Below, one piece after another: positions 11,856-22,601 of a stretch of 64,000 nt of DNA. The notes under the pieces were generated by a model. It was not told where the DNA came from. It ran no database searches and saw only the letters and a program-made list of their open reading frames with translations. Origin of the DNA: Caballeronia sp. NK8 (GTDB taxonomy: Bacteria > Pseudomonadota > Gammaproteobacteria > Burkholderiales > Burkholderiaceae); the NCBI RefSeq assembly GCF_018408855.1, contig NZ_AP024324.1:744001-808000 (forward strand). Direction: 5' to 3'. The translations under genes and the position numbers were made by a program. Every line of letters begins with the position of its first letter. The first letter of the stretch is position 1.

Positions 11856-13376
11856 TCAATCCCCGCGCCCCTGCTCATACGCATAGGCATACCCAAGCAA
11901 CGCCGCCTCATCCCACAAGCGGCCAACGAAGATCAACCCGAACGGCGAACCCGACGCGTAATACCCCGCCGGCACCGCAATCCCCGGCAGTCCCGCGATA
12001 TTGATCTCGCCCACCGTCGTTTCCTGAATGGTCTCTTTTCCATGAAGCGCGGGCAGCTCGCAGCGCATCTGCGGAAAGACGAGCGCATCGAGCCGATGCC
12101 CATTCATGACGCTCTCGAAGATGCGCAGATAGCGCGCCTTCAGTTCGACGAATTCGGGCAAGTCGGGCGGCATCGACGGATCGGCCAGCGCTACCCTGAA
12201 GTCCGCGAGACTGTGCAGATAGTGCAGCACGCCGTCCGGTCCGAAAGGGTCGTCGTCCCTGGTCGCGTCGGCGAACGCCGCGAAGGTTTTCAGCGGCGCA
12301 TGCTTGCCCAGGCGCGCCAGATACTTCTCGAGATCGTGCGGAATCGATTCGAGACCGCGCGCATCGAAGTTGTGAAGTGGATGGGTCGGCTTGCGCAATC
12401 CGGCGAATCCGGAGCCCTCGAACGGATCGTCGATCAGGGTTGCGCCGAGCGCGCGAAGTTCGCCCTTCACGCGCTCGTACAGCGTCGCGGCTTCATCGGA
12501 AAGCGGCTGGGCGCGCCATCCCGGGCCGTACAGGCCGATCCGCTTGCCGGCGAGCGCGTTCCGGTCCAGCCCCGCCGCATAGCCGCCTTCCGGCTGCCGG
12601 CCGACGCTCGCGAGCGTCTTCGGGTCCTCGCCCGAATATCCCGCGAGGATGTCGAGACACAGCGCAGCATCCCTGACATTCCGGGCGATCGGCCCGACCA
12701 CATCGCGATTGCCCGACAGCGGCACAACACCGGCGTTCGGCACCAGCCCGATGGTCGGCTTGATGCCGACGAGGTCCTGCGCCGACGCCGGATTCTGGAT
12801 CGATCCGCCGGTTTCTTCGGCGAGCCCGAGCACCGCCATGCCCGACGCCACCGCCGACGCCGTCCCCGCGCTGCTGCCGCCCGGTACGCGGTCCGGCATC
12901 ACGACGTTGAACGTCGGTCCCGCCCAGCTATCGTTCGCATGCGTGCCGGTATGGCTCAACACCGGCACGTTCGTCTTGCCGAGCATGATCGCGCCCGCGC
13001 GCCGCATGCGCGCGACGACCGGTGCATCGCGTTCGGGCATCAGATCGATGCCGCCGGTCTTGCTGTACAGCTTCGCCCATCCCGCCGTGGTCGGAAAGCC
13101 GACCATGTCCATCGGATCCTTGATGACGACCGGCACGCCCGCGAGCGGCCCCAGCCGTTCGCCGGCAGCGCGTCGTGCGTCGATCGCGCGTGCATCGTCG
13201 ATGGCCGCCGGGTTCAGGAAGATCAGCGCGTTGACCTTCGCGTTGTGGCGCGCGATCCGCTCGAAAGAGGCGCGCGCCAGTTGCTCGGCCGTGAACCTGC
13301 CGGTCCGAAAGCCCTCTTGCACGGTTTCGACGGTGAGCCCGTCCAGATCGATGTCCATCGCACTGCCTGTCGCCAT
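11856..13376 (-). CDS. Amidase signature-family hydrolase
   Basis: 506 residues from the ATG at 13376, with AGGAG just upstream; in-frame sequence further up belongs to the neighbouring SDR region. The amidase-signature triad is visible: Lys in VVIKDPMDMVG, the cis-Ser in EETGGSIQNPAS and the nucleophilic Ser in PGGSSAGTASA. The family hydrolyses carboxamides to acid and ammonia. It is the last gene of the amide operon, 29 bp after the SDR gene, so a substrate entering by the upstream ABC importer is plausible. The exact amide is unknown. Confidence 0.9.
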   Translation of the reverse strand: MATGSAMDIDLDGLTVETVQEGFRTGRFTAEQLARASFERIARHNAKVNALIFLNPAAIDDARAIDARRAAGERLGPLAGVPVVIKDPMDMVGFPTTAGWAKLYSKTGGIDLMPERDAPVVARMRRAGAIMLGKTNVPVLSHTGTHANDSWAGPTFNVVMPDRVPGGSSAGTASAVASGMAVLGLAEETGGSIQNPASAQDLVGIKPTIGLVPNAGVVPLSGNRDVVGPIARNVRDAALCLDILAGYSGEDPKTLASVGRQPEGGYAAGLDRNALAGKRIGLYGPGWRAQPLSDEAATLYERVKGELRALGATLIDDPFEGSGFAGLRKPTHPLHNFDARGLESIPHDLEKYLARLGKHAPLKTFAAFADATRDDDPFGPDGVLHYLHSLADFRVALADPSMPPDLPEFVELKARYLRIFESVMNGHRLDALVFPQMRCELPALHGKETIQETTVGEINIAGLPGIAVPAGYYASGSPFGLIFVGRLWDEAALLGYAYAYEQGRGD

Positions 13377-13405: not shown

Positions 13406-14170
13406 TCAGAGCTGCACGCCGCGCGTGAGCGCACCGTCGACCACGAAGTTCGCCCCGCTCACGAAACTCGCCGCCGGACTCGCGATGAACGCCACCGCGT
13501 TGGCGATTTCCTGCGGCCGGGCCATGCGTCCGGTCGGATTCAGCGCGAGCGCGCGCTCGAACAGCGCCGCATCGTTGTGCTCGATCCAGTCCCACACGCC
13601 GCCTTCGAAGTACACATTGCCGGGCGAGACCGTATTCGCGCGAATGCCCTTTGACGCCAACTGATTCGCGAGCCCCTGCATGTAATGCACGAGCGCGGCC
13701 TTGAACACGCCATACGGGCCCGCGGCGAAGTCGATCTCGCGTCCCGAAACGCTCGATATCGCGACGATCGACGCGGCCTTGCTCGCGGTGAGAAACGGCA
13801 TGGCGGCATCGACGAGATTGACGGTGCCGAGCAGATCCGTCTCGAACTCCTTGCGCCACGATTCGATGTCGTTGCCGATGGCCAGCGCGCTCACATTGGC
13901 CACGACGATATCGAGCCCGCCCCAGTCCGCGCCGACGCGCCCGACCCACGCCTTCAGCGCGGCGCCATTCGACACGTCGACGGCCTCGCCCGATGCGCGC
14001 GCGCCGCCCAGTTCCGCCAGCGCGTTCGCGGTCGACTGCACGCTCGCCGCGTCGCGCGCGCAAATGGCGACATCCGCGCCTTCGGCGGCCAGCGTTCGCG
14101 CGATCGCGAGACCGATGCCCTTGGTGCCGCCGGTCACGATCGCCTTCAAGCCCTTCAAATGCAGGTCCAT
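13406..14170 (-). CDS. SDR-family oxidoreductase in amide operon
   Basis: 254 residues with a classical short-chain dehydrogenase pattern. The NAD(P)-binding TGGTKGIG lies at about residues 13-20. ANVSA stands where the NNAG element is usual. The catalytic pair is in YGVFK with an upstream ISSVSG, and an INTVSP-like ANTVSPG follows. The ANVSA variant is common in some SDRs. It lies between amiR and the amidase on the same strand and may process an alcohol or aldehyde formed in amide degradation. Substrate unknown. Confidence 0.85.
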   Translation of the reverse strand: MDLHLKGLKAIVTGGTKGIGLAIARTLAAEGADVAICARDAASVQSTANALAELGGARASGEAVDVSNGAALKAWVGRVGADWGGLDIVVANVSALAIGNDIESWRKEFETDLLGTVNLVDAAMPFLTASKAASIVAISSVSGREIDFAAGPYGVFKAALVHYMQGLANQLASKGIRANTVSPGNVYFEGGVWDWIEHNDAALFERALALNPTGRMARPQEIANAVAFIASPAASFVSGANFVVDGALTRGVQL

Positions 14171-14212: not shown

Positions 14213-14863
14213 TCACTGCGGCTCGCGCCCGTCCTCCGGTGCCATGCCGCGGGCGATCTGCAGCACTTCGCCCGCCTGAATGACGGAGTGACAGATATCG
14301 TCGATGGTCACGCGCTTTTCCATTGCCTGCGCGCGCAGCATGTCGTACGCCTCGCGTTCGCTCACGCGATGCATGGTCATCAGAATGTTTTTGGCTTCCT
14401 GCAGATGCCGGCTGTCGAGCAGCTTCTGTTCGAGCTTGGCGATGCGCTGCGTATGCTGACGCAACCGCTTCGCGTGATACAGCGCCATTACCACGGTCGA
14501 CAGCAGCCCCGACGCACGGATCGGCGTCGTGACGATGCCGTCCGCGCCCAGTTTGATGGCCTGATCGATGAAGGTCGGATTCTCATACGCCACCACGCAG
14601 ATGACGGGCGGCGCATCCGGCCCGGACCACTCGCCCGCCGGCGCGCGTTCCTCCGGCAGCAGCGCGCGAAACACCAGATCGGTCCGGTCGGGCAGCGTGT
14701 CCTGCGGCGGCCAGCATCGCTCGACCTGAAAACCCATGCGCCGCAGATGATTCGTGAGCGTCAGGCCGTCGTCGTCGTCCGGATGGAAGACGACGACGCG
14801 CGCATTGCGCTCGAGGATGGAGCTCGTGAGACTACGCTGGCCTCTGTCCGCGCGCGCGCTCAC
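14213..14863 (-). CDS. amiR: ANTAR-domain antiterminator (AmiR-like)
   Basis: 216 residues from a GTG start at 14863, with a 1-bp gap to the amiC stop. The N-terminal half is a degenerate receiver domain (VVVFHPDDDDGLTLTNHLRRMGF; VICVVAYENPTFIDQAIKLGADGIVTTPI) without a clear phosphoacceptor, as in Pseudomonas AmiR. A coiled-coil linker follows (about 130-155), then the C-terminal ANTAR domain (EAKNILMTMHRVSEREAYDMLRAQAMEKRVTIDD). AmiR binds nascent leader RNA and prevents termination. AmiC holds it inactive until an amide binds. A matching leader lies upstream of this operon at 21811-21877. Confidence 0.92.
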   Translation of the reverse strand: MSARADRGQRSLTSSILERNARVVVFHPDDDDGLTLTNHLRRMGFQVERCWPPQDTLPDRTDLVFRALLPEERAPAGEWSGPDAPPVICVVAYENPTFIDQAIKLGADGIVTTPIRASGLLSTVVMALYHAKRLRQHTQRIAKLEQKLLDSRHLQEAKNILMTMHRVSEREAYDMLRAQAMEKRVTIDDICHSVIQAGEVLQIARGMAPEDGREPQ

Positions 14864-14864
14864 G

Positions 14865-16019
14865 TCAGTAGTCCCGCGTGCTCAACTTCGTGACCCAGTC
14901 GCCGAGCGTCTGGCGCGTCATGTACGGATCGGGCCCGACGGCGAACTTAGATTCGCGCAGAATGGTGAACTGGCCATCCGCACTGGCGCGGCCAATGCGC
15001 GGATAGAGCGCCATGTGATGATTGACGGGATCGATTCGCACGCGGCCCTGCGGCGCCGCGAACTCCGAACCGAGCAGATGCGGCATGATGGTCCCGATTT
15101 CGTCCGAGCCCGCGCGCGCATACGCTTGCGCGAACATGTGCATCTGATAGTACGCGGCCTCCCAGTTCATGTCGGTGGGCGTATCCGCGCCGAAGCGCGC
15201 CTGATGATGCCGCACCGCGTGATGATTCTCCGGCGTATCGATGCTCTGGAAATACGGCGCGGCAGTGTAGTGCCCAGCCGCGATGCCGCGCTCCATCGCA
15301 TGAATCTCGGTCTCGGAGGTATTCAGACTGCCGATCGGCATGCTGGCCGGATCGAAGTCCGCGTGTGCATAGGCATCGTAGAGATAAGGCACGGTCGCAC
15401 CGATGACCGTGCTGAAGATCCAGTCCGGCGACTTGCGCCTGATGTCGGTGACGACCTGCGCGAACTGCTCGCGCGTGGCGTCGAGCGGCAGATAACGCTC
15501 GCCGAGAATCGCGCCTTCGGGATGTTGCAGCAGCAACTCCTGCATCGTTCGATTGCATTCGTACGGATAGACGTAGCGCGAACCGACGAAATAGACGCGC
15601 GCGCCGAACGTCTCCGTCATGAAGTCCGCGAGCTGCACGCCGTTCTGATTCGGCGACGCTCCGCTATAGATGATGTTGTCCGAATACTCGAAACCTTCGT
15701 ACTGCTGGGAATAGATCAGCAGCCGGTTGTGCTTTTCGACGACGGGCAGCATTGCCTTGCGGCTGCTCGACGTATAACCGCCGAAGATGGTGTTGACGCC
15801 ATCCTTCAGGATCAGGCGCTCGGCGAGCTCACGGAACGCGGCCGGGTCGGAGCCGGGGTCCAGATGAAGAGCGACGAGCTCCCGTCCGCCGATGCCGCCG
15901 CGCGCATTGATCTCCTCGATGGCGAGGCTCGCGCCGCGCCATTGAGACTGTTCGAGCAAGGCGGTCGAACCGCTCGTCGAGCAAAGCAGGCCCACTCGGA
16001 TGGGATCGGACAAGGTCAT
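14865..16019 (-). CDS. amiC: AmiC-like amide sensor and negative regulator
   Basis: 384 residues, no signal peptide, with a periplasmic-binding-protein fold typical of AmiC (DPIRVGLLCSTSGSTALLEQ at the start; YSQQYEGFEYSDNIIYSGA; NWEAAYYQMHMFAQA). In Pseudomonas, AmiC is cytosolic, binds acetamide-like ligands and releases AmiR when bound. The lack of an export signal separates it from the exported binding protein encoded at 20521-21756, which is of the same superfamily. It is immediately followed by amiR, the expected order. Confidence 0.92.
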   Translation of the reverse strand: MTLSDPIRVGLLCSTSGSTALLEQSQWRGASLAIEEINARGGIGGRELVALHLDPGSDPAAFRELAERLILKDGVNTIFGGYTSSSRKAMLPVVEKHNRLLIYSQQYEGFEYSDNIIYSGASPNQNGVQLADFMTETFGARVYFVGSRYVYPYECNRTMQELLLQHPEGAILGERYLPLDATREQFAQVVTDIRRKSPDWIFSTVIGATVPYLYDAYAHADFDPASMPIGSLNTSETEIHAMERGIAAGHYTAAPYFQSIDTPENHHAVRHHQARFGADTPTDMNWEAAYYQMHMFAQAYARAGSDEIGTIMPHLLGSEFAAPQGRVRIDPVNHHMALYPRIGRASADGQFTILRESKFAVGPDPYMTRQTLGDWVTKLSTRDY

Positions 16020-16096: not shown

Positions 16097-17083
16097 CTAC
16101 TTGAGATACCGCTTGGCGACCATCGCGCCAACCGTATATTTTGGATCGACAAAATTACCGAGGCGCACACGGCCCACCTGGCTCAGCATCATGTACGCAT
16201 CCCACTTGTCGAAGCCGTATTCCGCAGCCATCCACAGTACCAGTTCGCGATAGGCGATGCGCGTCGCGTCCTCCAGCGGCCGCGCGCTGCCGATGCTCAT
16301 CAGTGCGTCCTCGTTCTCGAGCCGCGGCCAGTCGATCTTCCACTGCTTGATGAGATCGACGCGCACCGTCGTCGTGCTCTGATACTCGACGGCCGTGCCG
16401 CAGACTTCGCCATCGCCCTGACAGGCGTGTGCATCGCCGATGAAAAGCCGTCCGCCCGGCGAGCGCACCGGCAGATACGTGATGCTGCCCGGCCCCATGT
16501 CGGGCACGTCCATGTTGCCGCCGTGATTGTCGGGCGTGAGCGAGTTGATCGAATCGATCTCGGGCGAGAGACTCAACGTGCCGATATGCGGTTTGTAGGG
16601 CAGCGTGTTGCGTTTGCTCCAGTACACGTTCTCTTCGTCGATCCTGATCTTGCGCACCACTTCCGGCAGCGGCTCGTTGAGCAGCGCGGTGTAGTCGGTG
16701 CCGGTCAGCCCGCCGAAGTTCGGGATCATGCAGCAGAAGCCGTGCGGATCGTCGCCGCGCGGCGACATCTTCTCGATGTGCACCGCGATCACGTCGCCCT
16801 TCTCGGCGCCTTCGATCATGATCGGCCCGTTCTGCGGATTGAGGAACGGCACCTGCAGAACTTGCGACGGCTTGTCCGTTTCTTCCCTGATCTTGCCTTC
16901 GAACGCATCGCGCGTTTCGACCACGACGCGATCGCCCGGCTTGACGTGCAGCACGGGCTGCGAGTATGGGCCGATGGTGTAGTGATAAGTCTTCTGCATC
17001 TCCTCGGTGAGATGGTGCTCCACCGGCTCACGACCGGCGCCGACACCGCGCTTCATCATGATCGAATCTTCAAGCCATTTCAT
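16097..17083 (-). CDS. fmdA: Acetamidase/formamidase (FmdA family)
   Basis: 328 residues. Typical FmdA/AmdA features are seen: VKPGDRVVVETRDAFEG, NPQNGPIMIEGAEKGDVIAV, CCMIPNFGGLTG, PVRSPGGRLFIGDAHACQGDGEVCGTA. The family hydrolyses formamide or acetamide to ammonia and the acid with a metal-dependent site. It lies between the ABC transporter ATPase genes and amiC, 13 bp after the stop of the second ATPase gene, so importer, sensor and enzyme share a transcript. It is cytosolic. Confidence 0.92.
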   Translation of the reverse strand: MKWLEDSIMMKRGVGAGREPVEHHLTEEMQKTYHYTIGPYSQPVLHVKPGDRVVVETRDAFEGKIREETDKPSQVLQVPFLNPQNGPIMIEGAEKGDVIAVHIEKMSPRGDDPHGFCCMIPNFGGLTGTDYTALLNEPLPEVVRKIRIDEENVYWSKRNTLPYKPHIGTLSLSPEIDSINSLTPDNHGGNMDVPDMGPGSITYLPVRSPGGRLFIGDAHACQGDGEVCGTAVEYQSTTTVRVDLIKQWKIDWPRLENEDALMSIGSARPLEDATRIAYRELVLWMAAEYGFDKWDAYMMLSQVGRVRLGNFVDPKYTVGAMVAKRYLK

Positions 17084-17096
17084 GTTCCGCTCTCCG

Positions 17097-17804
17097 TCAC
17101 AGTGCCAGATACTGGCGAATCAGTTGTTCGTCCCCGAGTTGCGCGGGGCTCAGTGTCTCGACGATACGGCCCTTGTCCATCACGCAGCAGCGGGTCGCGA
17201 TGCGCTCGACCATGCCGATGTCCTGCTCGACGAGCACCACGCCGATGCCCGTCTCGCGCGCGATCTGCTGCAGCGTCTCGCCGATCAGATCGACGATCGA
17301 GGGCTGAATGCCTTCCGACGGCTCGTCGAGCAGCAGCACCTTCGGCGAGCTGATGAGCGCACGCGCGATCGCCAGCTGCTGCTGTTCGCCGCCGCTCATG
17401 GTCCCGGCTTTCTGCTGGTAGCGCTTCTCAAGAATAGGAAAATAGCCGACGACTTTCTCCTTCATCCGCGCCGCCTGCGCGCGATTCGCCTGCGCGCCGA
17501 CCTGCAGGTTTTCGGCGACCGTCAACGCACCGAAGATCTCGCGGCCCTGCGGCACGTAGCCCATGCCCTTTTGCGCGCGAACGTACGGTTTCTCGTGACC
17601 GATCGCCGTGCCGTCCAGGCCGATCGAACCGGCGTCGAGCCGGATGAGACCGATCAGCGCGCGCATCAGCGTGGTCTTGCCGACGCCGTTGCGCCCGATC
17701 AGCGCGAGCACCTCGCCCGGCCCGACGCCGAACGACACGCCATTGAGCACGCGCCCGCCACCGTAGCCCGCTTCCACACCCGACACTTCGAGCAACGCGC
17801 TCAT
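17097..17804 (-). CDS. ABC transporter ATPase (LivF/UrtE type)
   Basis: 235 residues. Walker A is GRNGVGKTT, the signature is MSGGEQQQLAIARAL, and Walker B is VLLLDEPSEGIQP. The short form ending soon after the H-loop is typical of LivF/UrtE ATPases. Its start overlaps the previous ATPase gene by 4 bp. It pairs with the 17801-18511 ATPase to drive the amide/urea-type importer. Confidence 0.92.
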   Translation of the reverse strand: MSALLEVSGVEAGYGGGRVLNGVSFGVGPGEVLALIGRNGVGKTTLMRALIGLIRLDAGSIGLDGTAIGHEKPYVRAQKGMGYVPQGREIFGALTVAENLQVGAQANRAQAARMKEKVVGYFPILEKRYQQKAGTMSGGEQQQLAIARALISSPKVLLLDEPSEGIQPSIVDLIGETLQQIARETGIGVVLVEQDIGMVERIATRCCVMDKGRIVETLSPAQLGDEQLIRQYLAL

Positions 17805-18511
17805 TTCCGCTTCCCCAGATAGACTTCCGCGACATCGTCGCGTGCGAGGATCTCGTCGAGCGGGCCGTCGGCGAGCAGACGCCCGCCATGCAGCACCGTG
17901 ACGCGCGAGGCGATCTGCCTGACGAAGGTCATGTCGTGCTCGACCACCATCATCGTGAGACCGGCTGCCGACAGACGCTTGATGAGTTCGCCCGTCGCAT
18001 GCGTCTCCTCGACCGACATGCCCGCCACGGGTTCATCGAGAAACAGCAGCTTCGGGCGCAGCGACACGGCCATCGCGATTTCGAGCCACTGCTTCTTGCC
18101 GTGCGACAGATTGCGCGCCAGCACGTGCTCCTCGTGCTCCAGCATGAAGCGCCGCAGGAGTTCGTCGAGGCTTTCGGCGCGGTCGTCCTTCGCGCGATGC
18201 AGCGACAGTTGCAGGTGCTGACGCACGCTCAGGTCCGGGAACACGCCGGGAATCTGAAACTTGATGCTCATGCCCATGCGGATGCGTTCGTGCGGCAGCA
18301 CATGACTCATGTCCTGGCCGAGGAACATCACGCTGCCTTCCGACGGCCGATGCTCACCCGTGATGAGCTTGAAGAACGTGCTCTTGCCCGCGCCGTTCGG
18401 TCCGATCACGCAGCGAATCTCGCCTGCGTCGATCCTGAAGTCGATCCCGTTGATCACATGCGCGCCGCCGAAATGCTTTTTGAGCCCGCGGGTTTCCAGC
18501 AGCGTGGTCAT
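17801..18511 (-). CDS. ABC transporter ATPase (LivG/UrtD type)
   Basis: 236 residues from the ATG at 18511; a much longer open frame continues upstream but overlaps the permeases and is not real. Walker A is GPNGAGKST and Walker B is LLFLDEPVAGMSVEET. The signature is altered (NLSHGKKQWLEIAM), as is normal in UrtD-like subunits of urea and short-chain amide importers. The start overlaps the LivM-type gene by 4 bp. Confidence 0.92.
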   Translation of the reverse strand: MTTLLETRGLKKHFGGAHVINGIDFRIDAGEIRCVIGPNGAGKSTFFKLITGEHRPSEGSVMFLGQDMSHVLPHERIRMGMSIKFQIPGVFPDLSVRQHLQLSLHRAKDDRAESLDELLRRFMLEHEEHVLARNLSHGKKQWLEIAMAVSLRPKLLFLDEPVAGMSVEETHATGELIKRLSAAGLTMMVVEHDMTFVRQIASRVTVLHGGRLLADGPLDEILARDDVAEVYLGKRK

Positions 18512-19578
18512 GACTTGCCCTCCTCTCGCTTGAGACACGCGCCCGCGTGACGCGCGCCGCCGTTCGCGCGGCCTTTCACGCGGCACGCCACGCGCCGCAG
18601 TTGCCGCGTGACGAACGGCAGCAGGCCTTCGGGCGCGGCCAGCACGACGATCAGCAGAATCGCGCCGAGCAGGATCAATGCATACTGGCTGCCGTACACC
18701 GCCAGATTCTGCGAGAGCCAGACGAGCAGCGCCGTGCCGAGAATGGTCCCGCCGATGCTCTTCCTGCCCGAGGTCGCGACCCAGATGACGGGCATCGCGG
18801 CGGCGGTGAGGCCCATCGTCGATGGCGTGATGTAGGCGCCCCAGATCGTGTACAGCGCGCCCGACAGGCCGCCCAGCGTGCAGCCGAGCACGAACACCAG
18901 CAACTGATGACGGCGGATATCGACGCCCAGCATCTCCGCGCGCTGCGGGTTCTCGCGTATGGCGATGAGCGTGAGCCCGAAGGTGCCGTCGAGCAGCTTG
19001 CGCATCGCGGCATAGACCGCGATCAGCAGCAGCAGCACGAGGTAATAGAAGCTCGCGTTCTCCAGCGTGAGCGGTCCGCCCGGCCAGGGAATCGTGAGTT
19101 GCGGCATGCCGCCCATGCCGTTGTAGCCGTTCAGCCGCGCTTCGCCGATCGCCCATTGCGGCCCGGCCGTCTGCGACATGAAGGTTTCGAGCACGAGCGT
19201 CACCGACAGCGTGACGATGCCGATGAACACGCCCTTGATCCGGCCATAGAAGATCATGTAGCCGATCAGCGCCGCGGCGACGACGCTCACCGCCAGTCCC
19301 GCGCCGAGGCCGAGCCATGACTGGAACCATGTGTCGCCGTAGTTCAGCGTGAAGATGCCGTAGCTGTAGCCCGACAGCCCGAAAAACGCGGTCTGTCCGA
19401 ACGACAGAATGCCGCCGTAGCCCCACATCGCGGCGAGCCCGAGCGCGCTGAACGCCCACAGCAGACAGTAAGCGAGATTGCCGCTGGTATTCGCATCGAC
19501 GACGAGGGGCAGGCACAGCGCCACGAGCCACGGCGCGTAACGCAGCGCGCGCGCCGGAGGTACCTTCGATTGCTTCAC
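18508..19578 (-). CDS. ABC transporter permease (LivM/UrtC type)
   Basis: 356 residues starting at a GTG (19578) with a strong AGGAGG 7 bp upstream. About 9-10 hydrophobic segments are seen, plus the family motif GYGGILSFGQTAFFGLSGYSYG near residue 53. RENPQRAEMLGVDIRRHQLLVFVLG is the conserved ATPase-coupling loop of this class. The C-terminal tail after residue 330 is basic and cytosolic. It is an inner-membrane partner of the LivH-type gene, 9 bp upstream. Confidence 0.92.
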   Translation of the reverse strand: MKQSKVPPARALRYAPWLVALCLPLVVDANTSGNLAYCLLWAFSALGLAAMWGYGGILSFGQTAFFGLSGYSYGIFTLNYGDTWFQSWLGLGAGLAVSVVAAALIGYMIFYGRIKGVFIGIVTLSVTLVLETFMSQTAGPQWAIGEARLNGYNGMGGMPQLTIPWPGGPLTLENASFYYLVLLLLIAVYAAMRKLLDGTFGLTLIAIRENPQRAEMLGVDIRRHQLLVFVLGCTLGGLSGALYTIWGAYITPSTMGLTAAAMPVIWVATSGRKSIGGTILGTALLVWLSQNLAVYGSQYALILLGAILLIVVLAAPEGLLPFVTRQLRRVACRVKGRANGGARHAGACLKREEGKS

Positions 19579-19587
19579 GTCTGCCTC

Positions 19588-20457
19588 CTAGCGCAAGCGG
19601 GTGAAGAGATTGCCGAGGCCCTGCGGCATCAGCCGGATCACGACGATGACCGTGACCAGCAGCCCGATCTGCCCGAACAACTGGCCATACGACGCCGTCA
19701 GCGCGGTCTGGATGATGGCGAGCACGCCGGCGGCCGGCGTTGTACCCGCGATGACGTTCGCGCCGCCGACGACCACCGACACGAACGCCTGCACGATGAA
19801 GTTGCTGCCCATCGTCGGGACCGCGGTCATGGTCGGCGCGTAGAGCGCGCCGGTGAGTCCGGCCAGGCCCGCGCCCAGCGCGAAGGTCAGCGTATAGAGC
19901 CGGTCCGTGCGCAGGCCGAGACATTGCGCGATGCTCGCGTTCTGGATCGTCGCGCGCGCGCAGACGCCGTAGTTCGTCTTGAAGAACAGCAGATAGAGCC
20001 CGAACAGGATCGCCAGCGCGATGACCGGCAGCACGGCGCGATACGTCGAGAACGAGTAGTCGCCGAGCGAGAACGACCCGAACGGCGTGCCGATGCCTTC
20101 GATCGACGGACCGGCCACGAGCAGCATCGTCTGCTGCACGATGAGACTGATCGCCCACGTCGCCACGACGGAATCGAACAGGCGGTCGTACAGGTGACGA
20201 ATGACGAGCCGTTCGATGACCACGCCCGCGAGCGCCGCCGCGAACGCGCCGAGCAGCATCGCAAGCGGCAGCGGCACGCCGCGCTTGGCCGCGATGATCG
20301 TGACGTACGCACCGCACATGATGAACTCGCCATGCGCGAGATTGATGACGCCCATCATGCCGAAGATCACCGCGAGACCCAGCGCCGCGAGCACCAGATA
20401 CGCGAAGTTGTCGCCGAACTGATAGATCAGCGAATAGAGAACCGATAAGGTGGCCAT
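19588..20457 (-). CDS. ABC transporter permease (LivH/UrtB type)
   Basis: 289 residues, all membrane (about 8 segments). LAALGLAVIFGMMGVINLAHGEFIM at about residues 23-47 is the LivH family hallmark, and ATIQNASIAQCLGLRTDRLY is the coupling loop. It forms the translocation path with the LivM-type permease. It lies 63 bp downstream of the binding-protein gene, a usual gap in these operons. Confidence 0.93.
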   Translation of the reverse strand: MATLSVLYSLIYQFGDNFAYLVLAALGLAVIFGMMGVINLAHGEFIMCGAYVTIIAAKRGVPLPLAMLLGAFAAALAGVVIERLVIRHLYDRLFDSVVATWAISLIVQQTMLLVAGPSIEGIGTPFGSFSLGDYSFSTYRAVLPVIALAILFGLYLLFFKTNYGVCARATIQNASIAQCLGLRTDRLYTLTFALGAGLAGLTGALYAPTMTAVPTMGSNFIVQAFVSVVVGGANVIAGTTPAAGVLAIIQTALTASYGQLFGQIGLLVTVIVVIRLMPQGLGNLFTRLR

Positions 20458-20520
20458 GCTTGCCCCACGTTCAGGAGACCGGCGCGCGCACGTGTCCGTT
20501 CGAGCGCGCGCCGGCCCGGA

Positions 20521-21756
20521 TCAGGACTTCTTCGGCAGATTCGACGGCGTGTACTGACGGTGATCCGGCTTGTTCGGCAGATCGCAGCCGACCTTCCCGA
20601 GCCAGTACGGCTGCACGTCGTTCCAGACCTTCGGAATATCGACGGAGTGATCTTCCTTCACGTGCACGAGATAGATGGTGTGACTCGCGTGATGACTCTT
20701 CGGATCGATGCAGACCTTGCCTTGCGCGCCTTCCGTGCAGATGTCGCCGCTCTCGAGGGCCTTGCGCACTGCATCCTGATTCGTCGACTTGGCCTTTTCT
20801 ACGGCGGCCTTGTAGAGATAGATGGCGTCGTAGGCGTTCGCCGCTTCCTGGTTGATATACGGTTCGTTCGGGAACTTCGCGTGGAAGCGCTTCTTGAAGT
20901 CGTTGCTCGCGGGCGAATCGACTTCCTCGACGTAGTTCGCCGTCACGTACATGTCCTTGAGCGCGGGCGGTTTGAAGCGTTTGTGCTCATACGCCTGACC
21001 GACGTTGACCGAACTCGCCATCGGCAGATTCAGATGCGCCGAAGCCTGCTGCTCGTAATACGACGCCTGATTCGCCCCGACCAGCAACGTGACCACGAAG
21101 TCCGGTTTCGCCTTCTGGATGTTCTGGATCGTCTGGCCGAACTGCGATACCGAGAGCGGAATGAATTCCTCGCCGACCATGGTGCCGCCGTTTTCCTTGA
21201 CGATATTGCGCACCCATTCCGCGGAGATCTGCCCGAAGTTGTAGTCGGCGGCGATGGTGTACACCTTCTTGCCGTACTTCTGCATCATCCAGGGAATGAG
21301 CGTCGAGAATTGCTGCTCCGGCACCGCGCCGGTCACGAAGGTGTTCGTGTCACAGACACCGCCTTCGTACTGGTTGTCGTACCAGTAGAGCTGATGCGCG
21401 CGGTCCATGATCGGGCGGATCGCTTCGCGCGACGCGCTGGAGAAAGCGCCGAAGATCACATCCGGCTTGTCCGTCTGGACGAGACGCCGTGCAAGCTCCT
21501 GAAACTTGGTGTTGTCCGATTGCGTGTCGTAGGCGATCAGCGTCACGGGACGTCCGAGGATGCCGCCCTTCGCGTTGATCTCTTCGACCGCGAGCTGCGT
21601 GGCGTGGATCTTCGGTATGGTCGCCAGTGCGAAGTTACCCGAGGCGTCCTCCAGCAGGCCGATCTTCACGGGGTCGGCCGCGCTCGATGCGAGCGACGTC
21701 ATTGCAAGTCCTGCGGTGAGGGCGAGACGCATCCAGCCCGACGGCTTCAGCAACAT
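20521..21756 (-). CDS. Amide/urea-type ABC importer substrate-binding protein
   Basis: 411 residues. A Sec signal peptide (residues 1 to about 27, MLLKPSGWMRLALTAGLAMT then ASSAADP, cleavage after SSA) is followed by a type I periplasmic-binding fold (KIGLLEDASGNFA, GRPVTLIAYDTQSDN, DVIFGAFSSASREAI, YWYDNQYEGGVCDTN). The Tyr-rich YWYDNQYEGG segment resembles the amide pocket of AmiC and UrtA/FmdD proteins. It is the first gene of the amide operon. Its start is 54 bp after a strong intrinsic terminator in the leader, so expression needs antitermination. Confidence 0.9.
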   Translation of the reverse strand: MLLKPSGWMRLALTAGLAMTSLASSAADPVKIGLLEDASGNFALATIPKIHATQLAVEEINAKGGILGRPVTLIAYDTQSDNTKFQELARRLVQTDKPDVIFGAFSSASREAIRPIMDRAHQLYWYDNQYEGGVCDTNTFVTGAVPEQQFSTLIPWMMQKYGKKVYTIAADYNFGQISAEWVRNIVKENGGTMVGEEFIPLSVSQFGQTIQNIQKAKPDFVVTLLVGANQASYYEQQASAHLNLPMASSVNVGQAYEHKRFKPPALKDMYVTANYVEEVDSPASNDFKKRFHAKFPNEPYINQEAANAYDAIYLYKAAVEKAKSTNQDAVRKALESGDICTEGAQGKVCIDPKSHHASHTIYLVHVKEDHSVDIPKVWNDVQPYWLGKVGCDLPNKPDHRQYTPSNLPKKS

Positions 21757-21810
21757 GCGGATTCTCCAGAGAAGTGAACGCTAGAACAGGGAAAATGCGG
21801 ACAAAAAAAA

Positions 21811-21843
21811 GCCCCCTGACGAACCGGTGGTTCGTCAGGGGGC
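21811..21843 (-). terminator. Intrinsic leader terminator of the amide operon
   Basis: On the minus strand a 15-bp perfect stem (GCCCCCTGACGAACC paired with GGTTCGTCAGGGGGC) with a 3-nt loop is followed by eight T residues (21803-21810). It lies between the promoter and the first gene of the operon, so it acts as a conditional attenuator rather than an end-of-operon signal. The 5' foot of the stem (21841-21843) is shared with the second hexaloop hairpin, making the two structures exclusive. Confidence 0.9.
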
Positions 21844-21877
21844 TTCTGTGCCGGATCCTCGGGCGGACGTCTTTGTC
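21841..21877 (-). promoter_or_regulatory. Putative ANTAR/AmiR target: two hexaloop hairpins
   Basis: Read on the minus strand, hairpin P1 is GAC-AAAGAC-GUC (21877-21866) and hairpin P2 is GGC-ACAGAA-GCC (21852-21841). Both loops have six bases with A at position 1 and G at position 4, the rule for ANTAR protein targets. The 3' strand of P2 is also the first part of the terminator stem, so stabilising P2 would block termination. Stems are only 3 bp before a mismatch, which lowers certainty. An AmiR gene lies in the same operon. Confidence 0.65.
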
Positions 21878-21897
21878 AGGCCTCGCGGGATGTGCAG

Positions 21898-21927
21898 AGT
21901 CTAAGGCGCCGTATTTTTATTTGTCAA
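21898..21927 (-). promoter_or_regulatory. Sigma70-like promoter of the amide operon
   Basis: On the minus strand TTGACA (21927-21922) is a perfect -35 box, followed after 18 bp by TAGACT (21903-21898), four of six matches to the -10 consensus. Transcription would start near 21890, giving a leader of about 135 nt that contains both ANTAR-type hairpins and the terminator before the first ATG at 21756. Confidence 0.6.
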
Positions 21928-22094
21928 CGCCGGAAAAAAATCGCCGACGGCTTCTGGATCGTCCATTAGTCACAGGAGAAATTCGTTCGAAGTCCTGTTT
22001 GGGCGGCTCAGCATGCGCTGAAACTAGAACTTTCAACTCGAAAGCTCTATAACTTTAAGCATTGCTCAGCCATGGGTCTGTGACCGGGTGCGAT

Positions 22095-22601
22095 ATGAAA
22101 AGGCTCACGCGTCGTGCGAGCATGCGGATTGTTGCGCTTTCTGCAACCCTGCTGACGAGCACTATCGGATGGTCACAATCGATTCCAAAGCAGGGGCCGA
22201 TAGATGTGACCTTTACGGCATTCTGGCGCGATGTAAAGGAGACGCCGGTCGGAACGGATAACGCCGTCTATCTATCCGAAGCGACCATGGGCTTCGCCGA
22301 GAACAGGAAGACACCGCTGATGCAGAACATCACCGCGCGCTGCGTCGAAGCGGGTTTCAGCGCGGGCGTTGCCAACGGATTCTGCGTCTTCACGGACAAG
22401 GATGGCGATAACTTCGTCGAGACCTTCAGTCACGCGGCGGGCACGCCTGCGGGAAAAGCGGTGCTGGGCTCGGGAACGGGCAAGTACAAGGGCATAAAGG
22501 GCGAACTCGACTGGCAGCAGGTACAGCAGCTTCCCGCCGAGAAGGGCTCGTACAACTTCGTCGGCAAGAAGACGGGCAATTATCGGATAGGCGCGGATTG
22601 A
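22095..22601 (+). CDS. Small exported protein, barrel-like, unknown function
   Basis: 168 residues from ATG 22095. The N-terminus MKRLTRRASMRIVALSATLL with a following WSQS looks like a Sec signal peptide, so the mature protein is periplasmic or secreted. The mature part is rich in beta structure; GSGTGKYKGIKGELDW near the C-terminus resembles the GTGKY-GI-G turn of allene oxide cyclase-like/dirigent-like barrels. No catalytic residues were recognised. It stands alone, divergent from the amide operon and convergent with the hydrolase to its right. Confidence 0.7.
   Translation: MKRLTRRASMRIVALSATLLTSTIGWSQSIPKQGPIDVTFTAFWRDVKETPVGTDNAVYLSEATMGFAENRKTPLMQNITARCVEAGFSAGVANGFCVFTDKDGDNFVETFSHAAGTPAGKAVLGSGTGKYKGIKGELDWQQVQQLPAEKGSYNFVGKKTGNYRIGAD

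Follow-up and report, generated by a model that had tools for sequence, protein, structure and literature searches.

A leader RNA on the minus strand (21927-21756) of the 64-kb window, the whole stretch of DNA that was analysed, is in our estimate with a probability of about 0.93 an ANTAR-target antiterminator governed by AmiC and AmiR, which are encoded in the operon that it precedes. This places uptake, breakdown and sensing of small amides under one predicted RNA switch.

The leader and its operon

The letters of the leader were read directly and contain the following elements:

21898..21927, minus strand: putative sigma-70-type promoter, TTGACA (21927-21922), 18-nt spacer, TAGACT (21903-21898), 10/12 matches
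21857..21888, minus strand: hairpin P1, inner stem GAC/GTC with loop AAAGAC at 21874-21869 (inner GAC-AAAGAC-GTC at 21877-21866), lengthened by a predicted outer stem
21841..21852, minus strand: hairpin P2 (antiterminator), GGC-ACAGAA-GCC, loop at 21849-21844, found at the same place in 34/34 orthologous leaders
21803..21843, minus strand: intrinsic terminator, 15-bp stem (21843-21811), loop ACC, U8 (21810-21803)

Both hairpins have stems of at least 3 bp and hexaloops with A1 and G4, as the published rule demands for both loops of an ANTAR target (PMC3369931, PMC8934654). The 3' arm of P2 lies within the 5' arm of the terminator, GCC at 21843-21841 being common to P2 and the first three terminator bases. 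The initial annotation had named this promoter, the two six-base loops with A1-G4 and a strong terminator whose 5' foot is the 3' strand of the second hairpin, and all three were confirmed to the letter. It had also called the hairpin stems short, which holds for P2 with its three pairs and does not hold for P1, which is longer in the predicted fold and covaries in relatives.

By itself, the promoter match is weak evidence: 12 kb contained two promoter-like sites, including this one, and shuffles gave 1.8. TTGACA is invariant in 21 aligned Burkholderiales leaders and is present upstream in 34/34 orthologues. The terminator stem has the most pairs among 11 terminator-like sites in 11-23 kb of the window, where shuffles gave 7.0 sites. 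The fold of the whole leader had a z of -6.5 and none of 200 shuffles was equally stable; this stability is owed mainly to the terminator, and the dual hairpin alone is of ordinary stability (z -0.65 and -1.0). When both strands of the window were scanned for pairs of hairpins that have A1-G4 hexaloops and at least 3 stem pairs each, with the second hairpin at a terminator foot, the leader was the single match on either strand. In 60 dinucleotide shuffles, the mean number of such matches was 0.05 with at least 7 terminator pairs, and 0/60 shuffles had a match with at least 10 pairs. On the plus strand, a divergent 179-aa reading frame (22062-22601) shares its upstream region with the leader promoter.

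We infer AmiR binding and the inducer according to the following scheme. Without inducer, AmiC would hold AmiR and transcription would end at the terminator. A small amide binding to AmiC would free AmiR, and the ANTAR domains of AmiR would then grip the hexaloops of P1 and P2 on the nascent transcript. With P2 held, the GCC at the terminator foot would be kept, the last G-C pairs beside the U-tract could not form, and the polymerase would proceed to the genes for the importer, the amidase and the regulators. Growing transcripts were folded at equilibrium, with the polymerase footprint left out of account. For each of seven 3' ends (21841 to 21815), the probability was 0.99 for P1 and 0.96-0.99 for P2; once the transcript reached 21811, where the terminator GGC ends, the probability of P2 was 0.0 and the full stem formed. 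Enforcing P2 left an 11-bp hairpin that was set off from the U-tract (-40.7 vs -52.4 kcal/mol, a cost of 11.7 kcal/mol), which suggests that AmiR would need to block the last pairs only and that keeping the final three or four of the 15 terminator pairs from forming would suffice. The folding agrees with the published model, according to which a stabilised P2 shortens the terminator and parts it from the U-tract (PMC3369936). In AmiR, the counterparts of Lys149, Glu160, Tyr164, Arg168, Met172 and Arg175 of EutV are conserved (assuming a numbering offset of 2), while 5 of the 11 RNA-contact residues compared, Arg142, Lys143, Lys147, Asn173 and Arg177, are not kept.

Behind the leader, the minus strand carries ten colinear genes that lie no more than 77 nt apart, the last gap depending on the chosen amidase start:

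20521..21756, minus strand: importer binding protein, UrtA-like (NCBIfam TIGR03669, 595 bits, cut-off 494.8; N-terminal signal-like segment by eye)
19588..20457, minus strand: ABC permease 1, UrtB-like (below NCBIfam cut-off)
18508..19578, minus strand: ABC permease 2, UrtC-like (below NCBIfam cut-off)
17801..18511, minus strand: ABC ATPase 1, UrtD-like (below NCBIfam cut-off, scanned from 18529)
17097..17804, minus strand: ABC ATPase 2, UrtE-like (274.9 bits vs NCBIfam cut-off of 285.8)
16097..17083, minus strand: acetamidase/formamidase family protein (PF03069, 123 bits; NCBIfam FmdA far below cut-off)
14865..16019, minus strand: AmiC-like sensor (best match P. aeruginosa AmiC, 1qnl, 284 bits; without signal peptide by eye)
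14213..14863, minus strand: AmiR (AmiR_N pseudo-receiver 94.7 bits, ANTAR domain 48.1 bits; best match AmiR in 1qo0, the AmiC-AmiR complex)
13406..14170, minus strand: ninth gene, SDR-family oxidoreductase
11856..13376, minus strand: tenth gene, amidase (start uncertain, 13376 or 13358; scanned from 13370, no NCBIfam model reaches its cut-off)

The same gene order, including the amidase as tenth gene, is annotated in Paraburkholderia, and AmiR is 94% identical to that of C. grimmiae, which places the host close to Caballeronia. That the operon encodes both AmiC and AmiR had been stated before and proved correct: the best matches of the two proteins among solved structures are AmiC and AmiR of P. 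aeruginosa, AmiR combines the pseudo-receiver with an ANTAR domain, and AmiC appears cytoplasmic by eye. The initial annotation further had the leader precede the importer binding protein and govern ten genes. Its position and the ten colinear genes are as described; control of all ten would require one transcript across them, which we infer, and internal promoters are possible. A terminator was looked for after the tenth gene and none was found. A long G+C-rich inverted repeat without U-tract was seen by eye between the genes for the binding protein and the first permease (20458-20520, minus strand) and perhaps sets a higher level of the binding protein.

The importer is Urt-like, and an amide cargo is likely, as judged from the operon context. 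It did not qualify as UrtABCDE in NCBIfam, where the binding protein was the only one of the five subunits to pass, by an archaeal-type model. This model is a urea-transporter model and relatives are annotated as urea transporters, which raises the question whether the system operates as outlined with urea or another compound, and not an aliphatic amide, as natural inducer and cargo. We consider this unlikely, but of all alternatives it carries the most weight; the presence of an acetamidase/formamidase-family protein and an amidase in the operon and of a sensor that is closest to AmiC among solved structures argues for small amides, which we prefer as inducers.

Conservation and covariation

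Via AmiR, 37 loci were located in named genomes, and 34 of them were readable (L009, L013 and L025 lacked the first gene or its upstream region). The same RNA leads the importer operon in 34/34 readable orthologues, comprising 20 from Burkholderiales (Caballeronia, Paraburkholderia and relatives) and 14 from Enterobacterales (eight Yersinia, three Brenneria, one Klebsiella, one Prodigiosinella and one MAG). The distance between the P1 and P2 loops is 25 nt in all 34, and the predicted folds draw the P2 3' arm into the terminator, by all three bases in 32/34 leaders and by two of three in L015 and L017. The automatic terminator finder failed on the 14 Enterobacterales leaders and on L013; the 14 were settled by folding. 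Loops, spacing and the overlap of P2 with the terminator are conserved across orthologues, while the flanks vary. Plasmid copies of operon and leader were detected in one Paraburkholderia and one Raoultella (L091 and L092). On the Raoultella plasmid (L092, 1-12360), operon and leader lie between IS3-family transposase genes, followed by a nitrilase-related gene, and AmiR relatives were seen on 24 Klebsiella plasmid records.

A search with an ANTAR covariance model had been proposed as a check on the initial annotation. We performed it with three models that were built in this analysis with the window left out and that differ from the published ANTAR model: R1 from the 14 Enterobacterales leaders (96% mean column identity), R2 from 17 near relatives, and R3 from 11 distant AmiR-linked leaders of other genomes and operon types, taken from the 26 readable ones described below. 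The outcome supported the leader for two of the models. R3 matched it with an E of 4e-5 in the window, and across the 9.2-Mb genome it was the best R3 match, with 30.7 bits and an E of 0.006, ahead of one of 20.9 bits; the other six genome matches of R3 had E values of at least 0.9. R3 also found 18 of the 19 named orthologues tried at 19.7-36.6 bits (E 2e-5 to 0.15), with L031 at 15.2 bits (E 1.5), and had no match in front of other importer-like clusters in L019 and L020. R2 matched the leader with 81 bits and nothing else across the genome. Over 24 sources, R2 matched the window, L091 and L022-L024, plus L072 at chance level (E 9.4), and it did not recover the Enterobacterales or other distant leaders given to it. 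R1 missed the window leader; its 14 sequences are 96% alike and have a different P2 loop. Rfam 15 gave no match at gathering scores, which is no refutation because the presence of an ANTAR family in Rfam 15 is uncertain and such a family may be absent; at E up to 10, there were 12 weak matches, mostly over the terminator and all far below gathering scores.

In the R3 alignment, 86% of the P1 cells are paired, and both partners vary in 7 of the 8 P1 pairs. For the whole structure, which was chosen after the sequences had been seen, 90% of cells are paired in the 11 distant leaders and covariation was 0.575, compared with 0.187 in shuffles (0/500 reached the observed value) and 0.058-0.193 when the structure was slid. 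One of five covariation measures, the number of further pair types, stayed within the shuffles (14 vs 12.1, 93/500). On the alignment, P1 is the longer, covarying hairpin of the predicted structure. P2 covaries slightly (1 of 3 pairs) because its three pairs are near-invariant.

The genome encodes two ANTAR proteins, and the leader might be a target of the other one, or of both. This second protein is NasT-like (L001, G000:C2:514742-517900) and adjoins genes that by eye resemble those for a NasS-type sensor and a SUMT-type methyltransferase, suggesting a nitrate system. We regard its control over the leader as very improbable, as the leader lies within the amiC-amiR operon in 34/34 orthologues from two orders, similar leaders adjoin amiC-amiR in other architectures, and none of the listed covariance-model matches falls at the NasT locus. 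Even less credible is a reading in which the hexaloops are incidental and the terminator merely attenuates in the usual way or ends a transcript from upstream, for which the unremarkable stability of the dual hairpin could be adduced, but which is contradicted by the conserved loops, spacing and overlap amid varying flanks, by the covariation of P1 in distant leaders, and by a promoter just upstream of the leader with the likeliest upstream frame pointing away.

Distant leaders and the loop rule

AmiR_N searches of further genomes led to 42 fetched loci, some of them with weak AmiR_N matches only. A leader was readable in 26, located before an importer binding protein in 17 and before an amidase-like gene in nine; 16 of the 42 loci had no counted leader (11/20, 4/20 and 1/2 per fetched batch). 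Six of the fetched loci (L083-L086, L088, L089) were scanned with the strict A1-G4 scan only. The importer-first leaders comprise 11 of group B, nine of them divergent from amiC-amiR, and six of group C downstream of amiR. In group B, the importer binding protein matched the AmiC query (32-41%) and not the SBP query, and its gene lies directly before the permease genes. Five of the nine amidase-like first genes, those of L074-L077 and L081 in group D, are only distantly like AmiE, at 25-29% to the amiE query. The initial annotation had presented the position before an importer, in place of the amidase found in Pseudomonas, as a special point. With 17 importer-first against nine amidase-like cases among 26 leaders, this placement is common and not unusual for such operons. 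In 2012, Ramesh et al. searched 1902 genomes and described ANTAR RNAs in Burkholderia as well as ahead of urea transporters (PMC3369931). A homology search with AmiE matched 14 of 369 genomes and gained few leaders; 9 of these 14 genomes have importer ATPase genes directly before the amidase within the 4-kb stretch, and a single one, L099, showed amiR. In L073 (2350-2676) and L082 (4300-4640), a hairpin with the loop AGCGCC precedes the importer binding protein; no overlapping intrinsic terminator was seen for it, and it might reflect another type of control.

The loops were compared over 63 loci, which are kin, so that the counts are not independent and come from a biased sample. Group A has 37 rows, namely the window, the 34 orthologues taken by homologous position and the plasmids L091 and L092. 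For the 11 leaders of group B, nine came from a scan or a model; R3 supplied L124, L072 and L131. The scan demanded A1 in P2 and AA plus G/A at position 4 in P1, so that A1 and P1 counts lean accordingly. The six leaders of group C and five of group D were obtained by a scan without loop letters that required a C-G closing pair, with P1 assigned by eye. P1 is doubtful in L074 and L077, and L131 has no separate overlapping terminator. The comparison does not include the weak R3 matches in L071 (18.8 bits) and at a second position of L074 (17.4 bits).

P1 keeps A1-G4 in 58/63 loci (17 of 20 distinct loops), P2 in 30/63 (5 of 18 distinct loops), and position 6 of P2 is A in 62/63 loci. The 14 Enterobacterales orthologues have the P2 loop AATAGA (13) or ATCAGA (1); in the leaders of L026-L039 and L092, where these loops occur, the G stands at position 5, not 4. 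Leaders of group C (L079, L111-L114, L117) have P2 loops that start with U (TATGAA, TACGAA or TAGGAA) and the P1 loop AGGGCT. The EutV complex shows G4 flipped out and stacked on Tyr164, with additional residues holding the G4 of P2 (PMC8934654). We tentatively propose, at somewhat under even odds, that in AmiR-type leaders P1 keeps A1-G4, P2 is marked by A6, begins with A or U and often has A instead of G at position 4, the ANTAR dimer reads unlike loops, and an importer gene, rather than the amidase, is the usual first gene. The wider set of loci hints that AmiR targets may escape loop rules derived from eut, nas and ami leaders, a point of relevance to ANTAR regulon searches.

Relation to known antitermination systems

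A literature search on AmiR, AmiC or ANTAR antitermination in Burkholderia, Paraburkholderia and Caballeronia, with most subscription journals outside its reach, returned no report on this leader by title or abstract start. Among the closest known systems is the acetamidase operon of a Klebsiella plasmid described in 2026, which contains amiC, amiR and an ABC transporter and is of the same kind (PMC13209695). The passages available from that paper name antitermination by AmiR and contain no description of a leader. They list four transporter genes and an amidase called amiE, whereas the Raoultella plasmid L092 has five and an acetamidase/formamidase-family gene; L092 shows the gene order of the window type and a leader, and we think that both plasmids carry the same element family.

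The amiE leader of P. aeruginosa shares with the window leader the dual hairpin with a terminator overlapping P2 and the location of AmiC and AmiR inside the controlled operon (PMC3369931, PMC3369936). The two leaders were compared by description, not by letters, and differ in the first gene, which encodes an amidase in P. aeruginosa and the binding protein of an ABC importer here. The RNAs recognised by EutV (eutP) and NasR (nasF) likewise have two A1-G4 hexaloop hairpins with P2 overlapping an intrinsic terminator (PMC3369931; PMC8934654). Their regulators are governed differently: EutV is phosphorylated and NasR itself binds nitrate, whereas the regulator of the window operon would be held by a binding-protein sensor. 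The leader provides a well-supported comparative case of predicted AmiR antitermination outside Pseudomonas; it adds another case to the known type of ANTAR targets and does not overturn the known mechanism.
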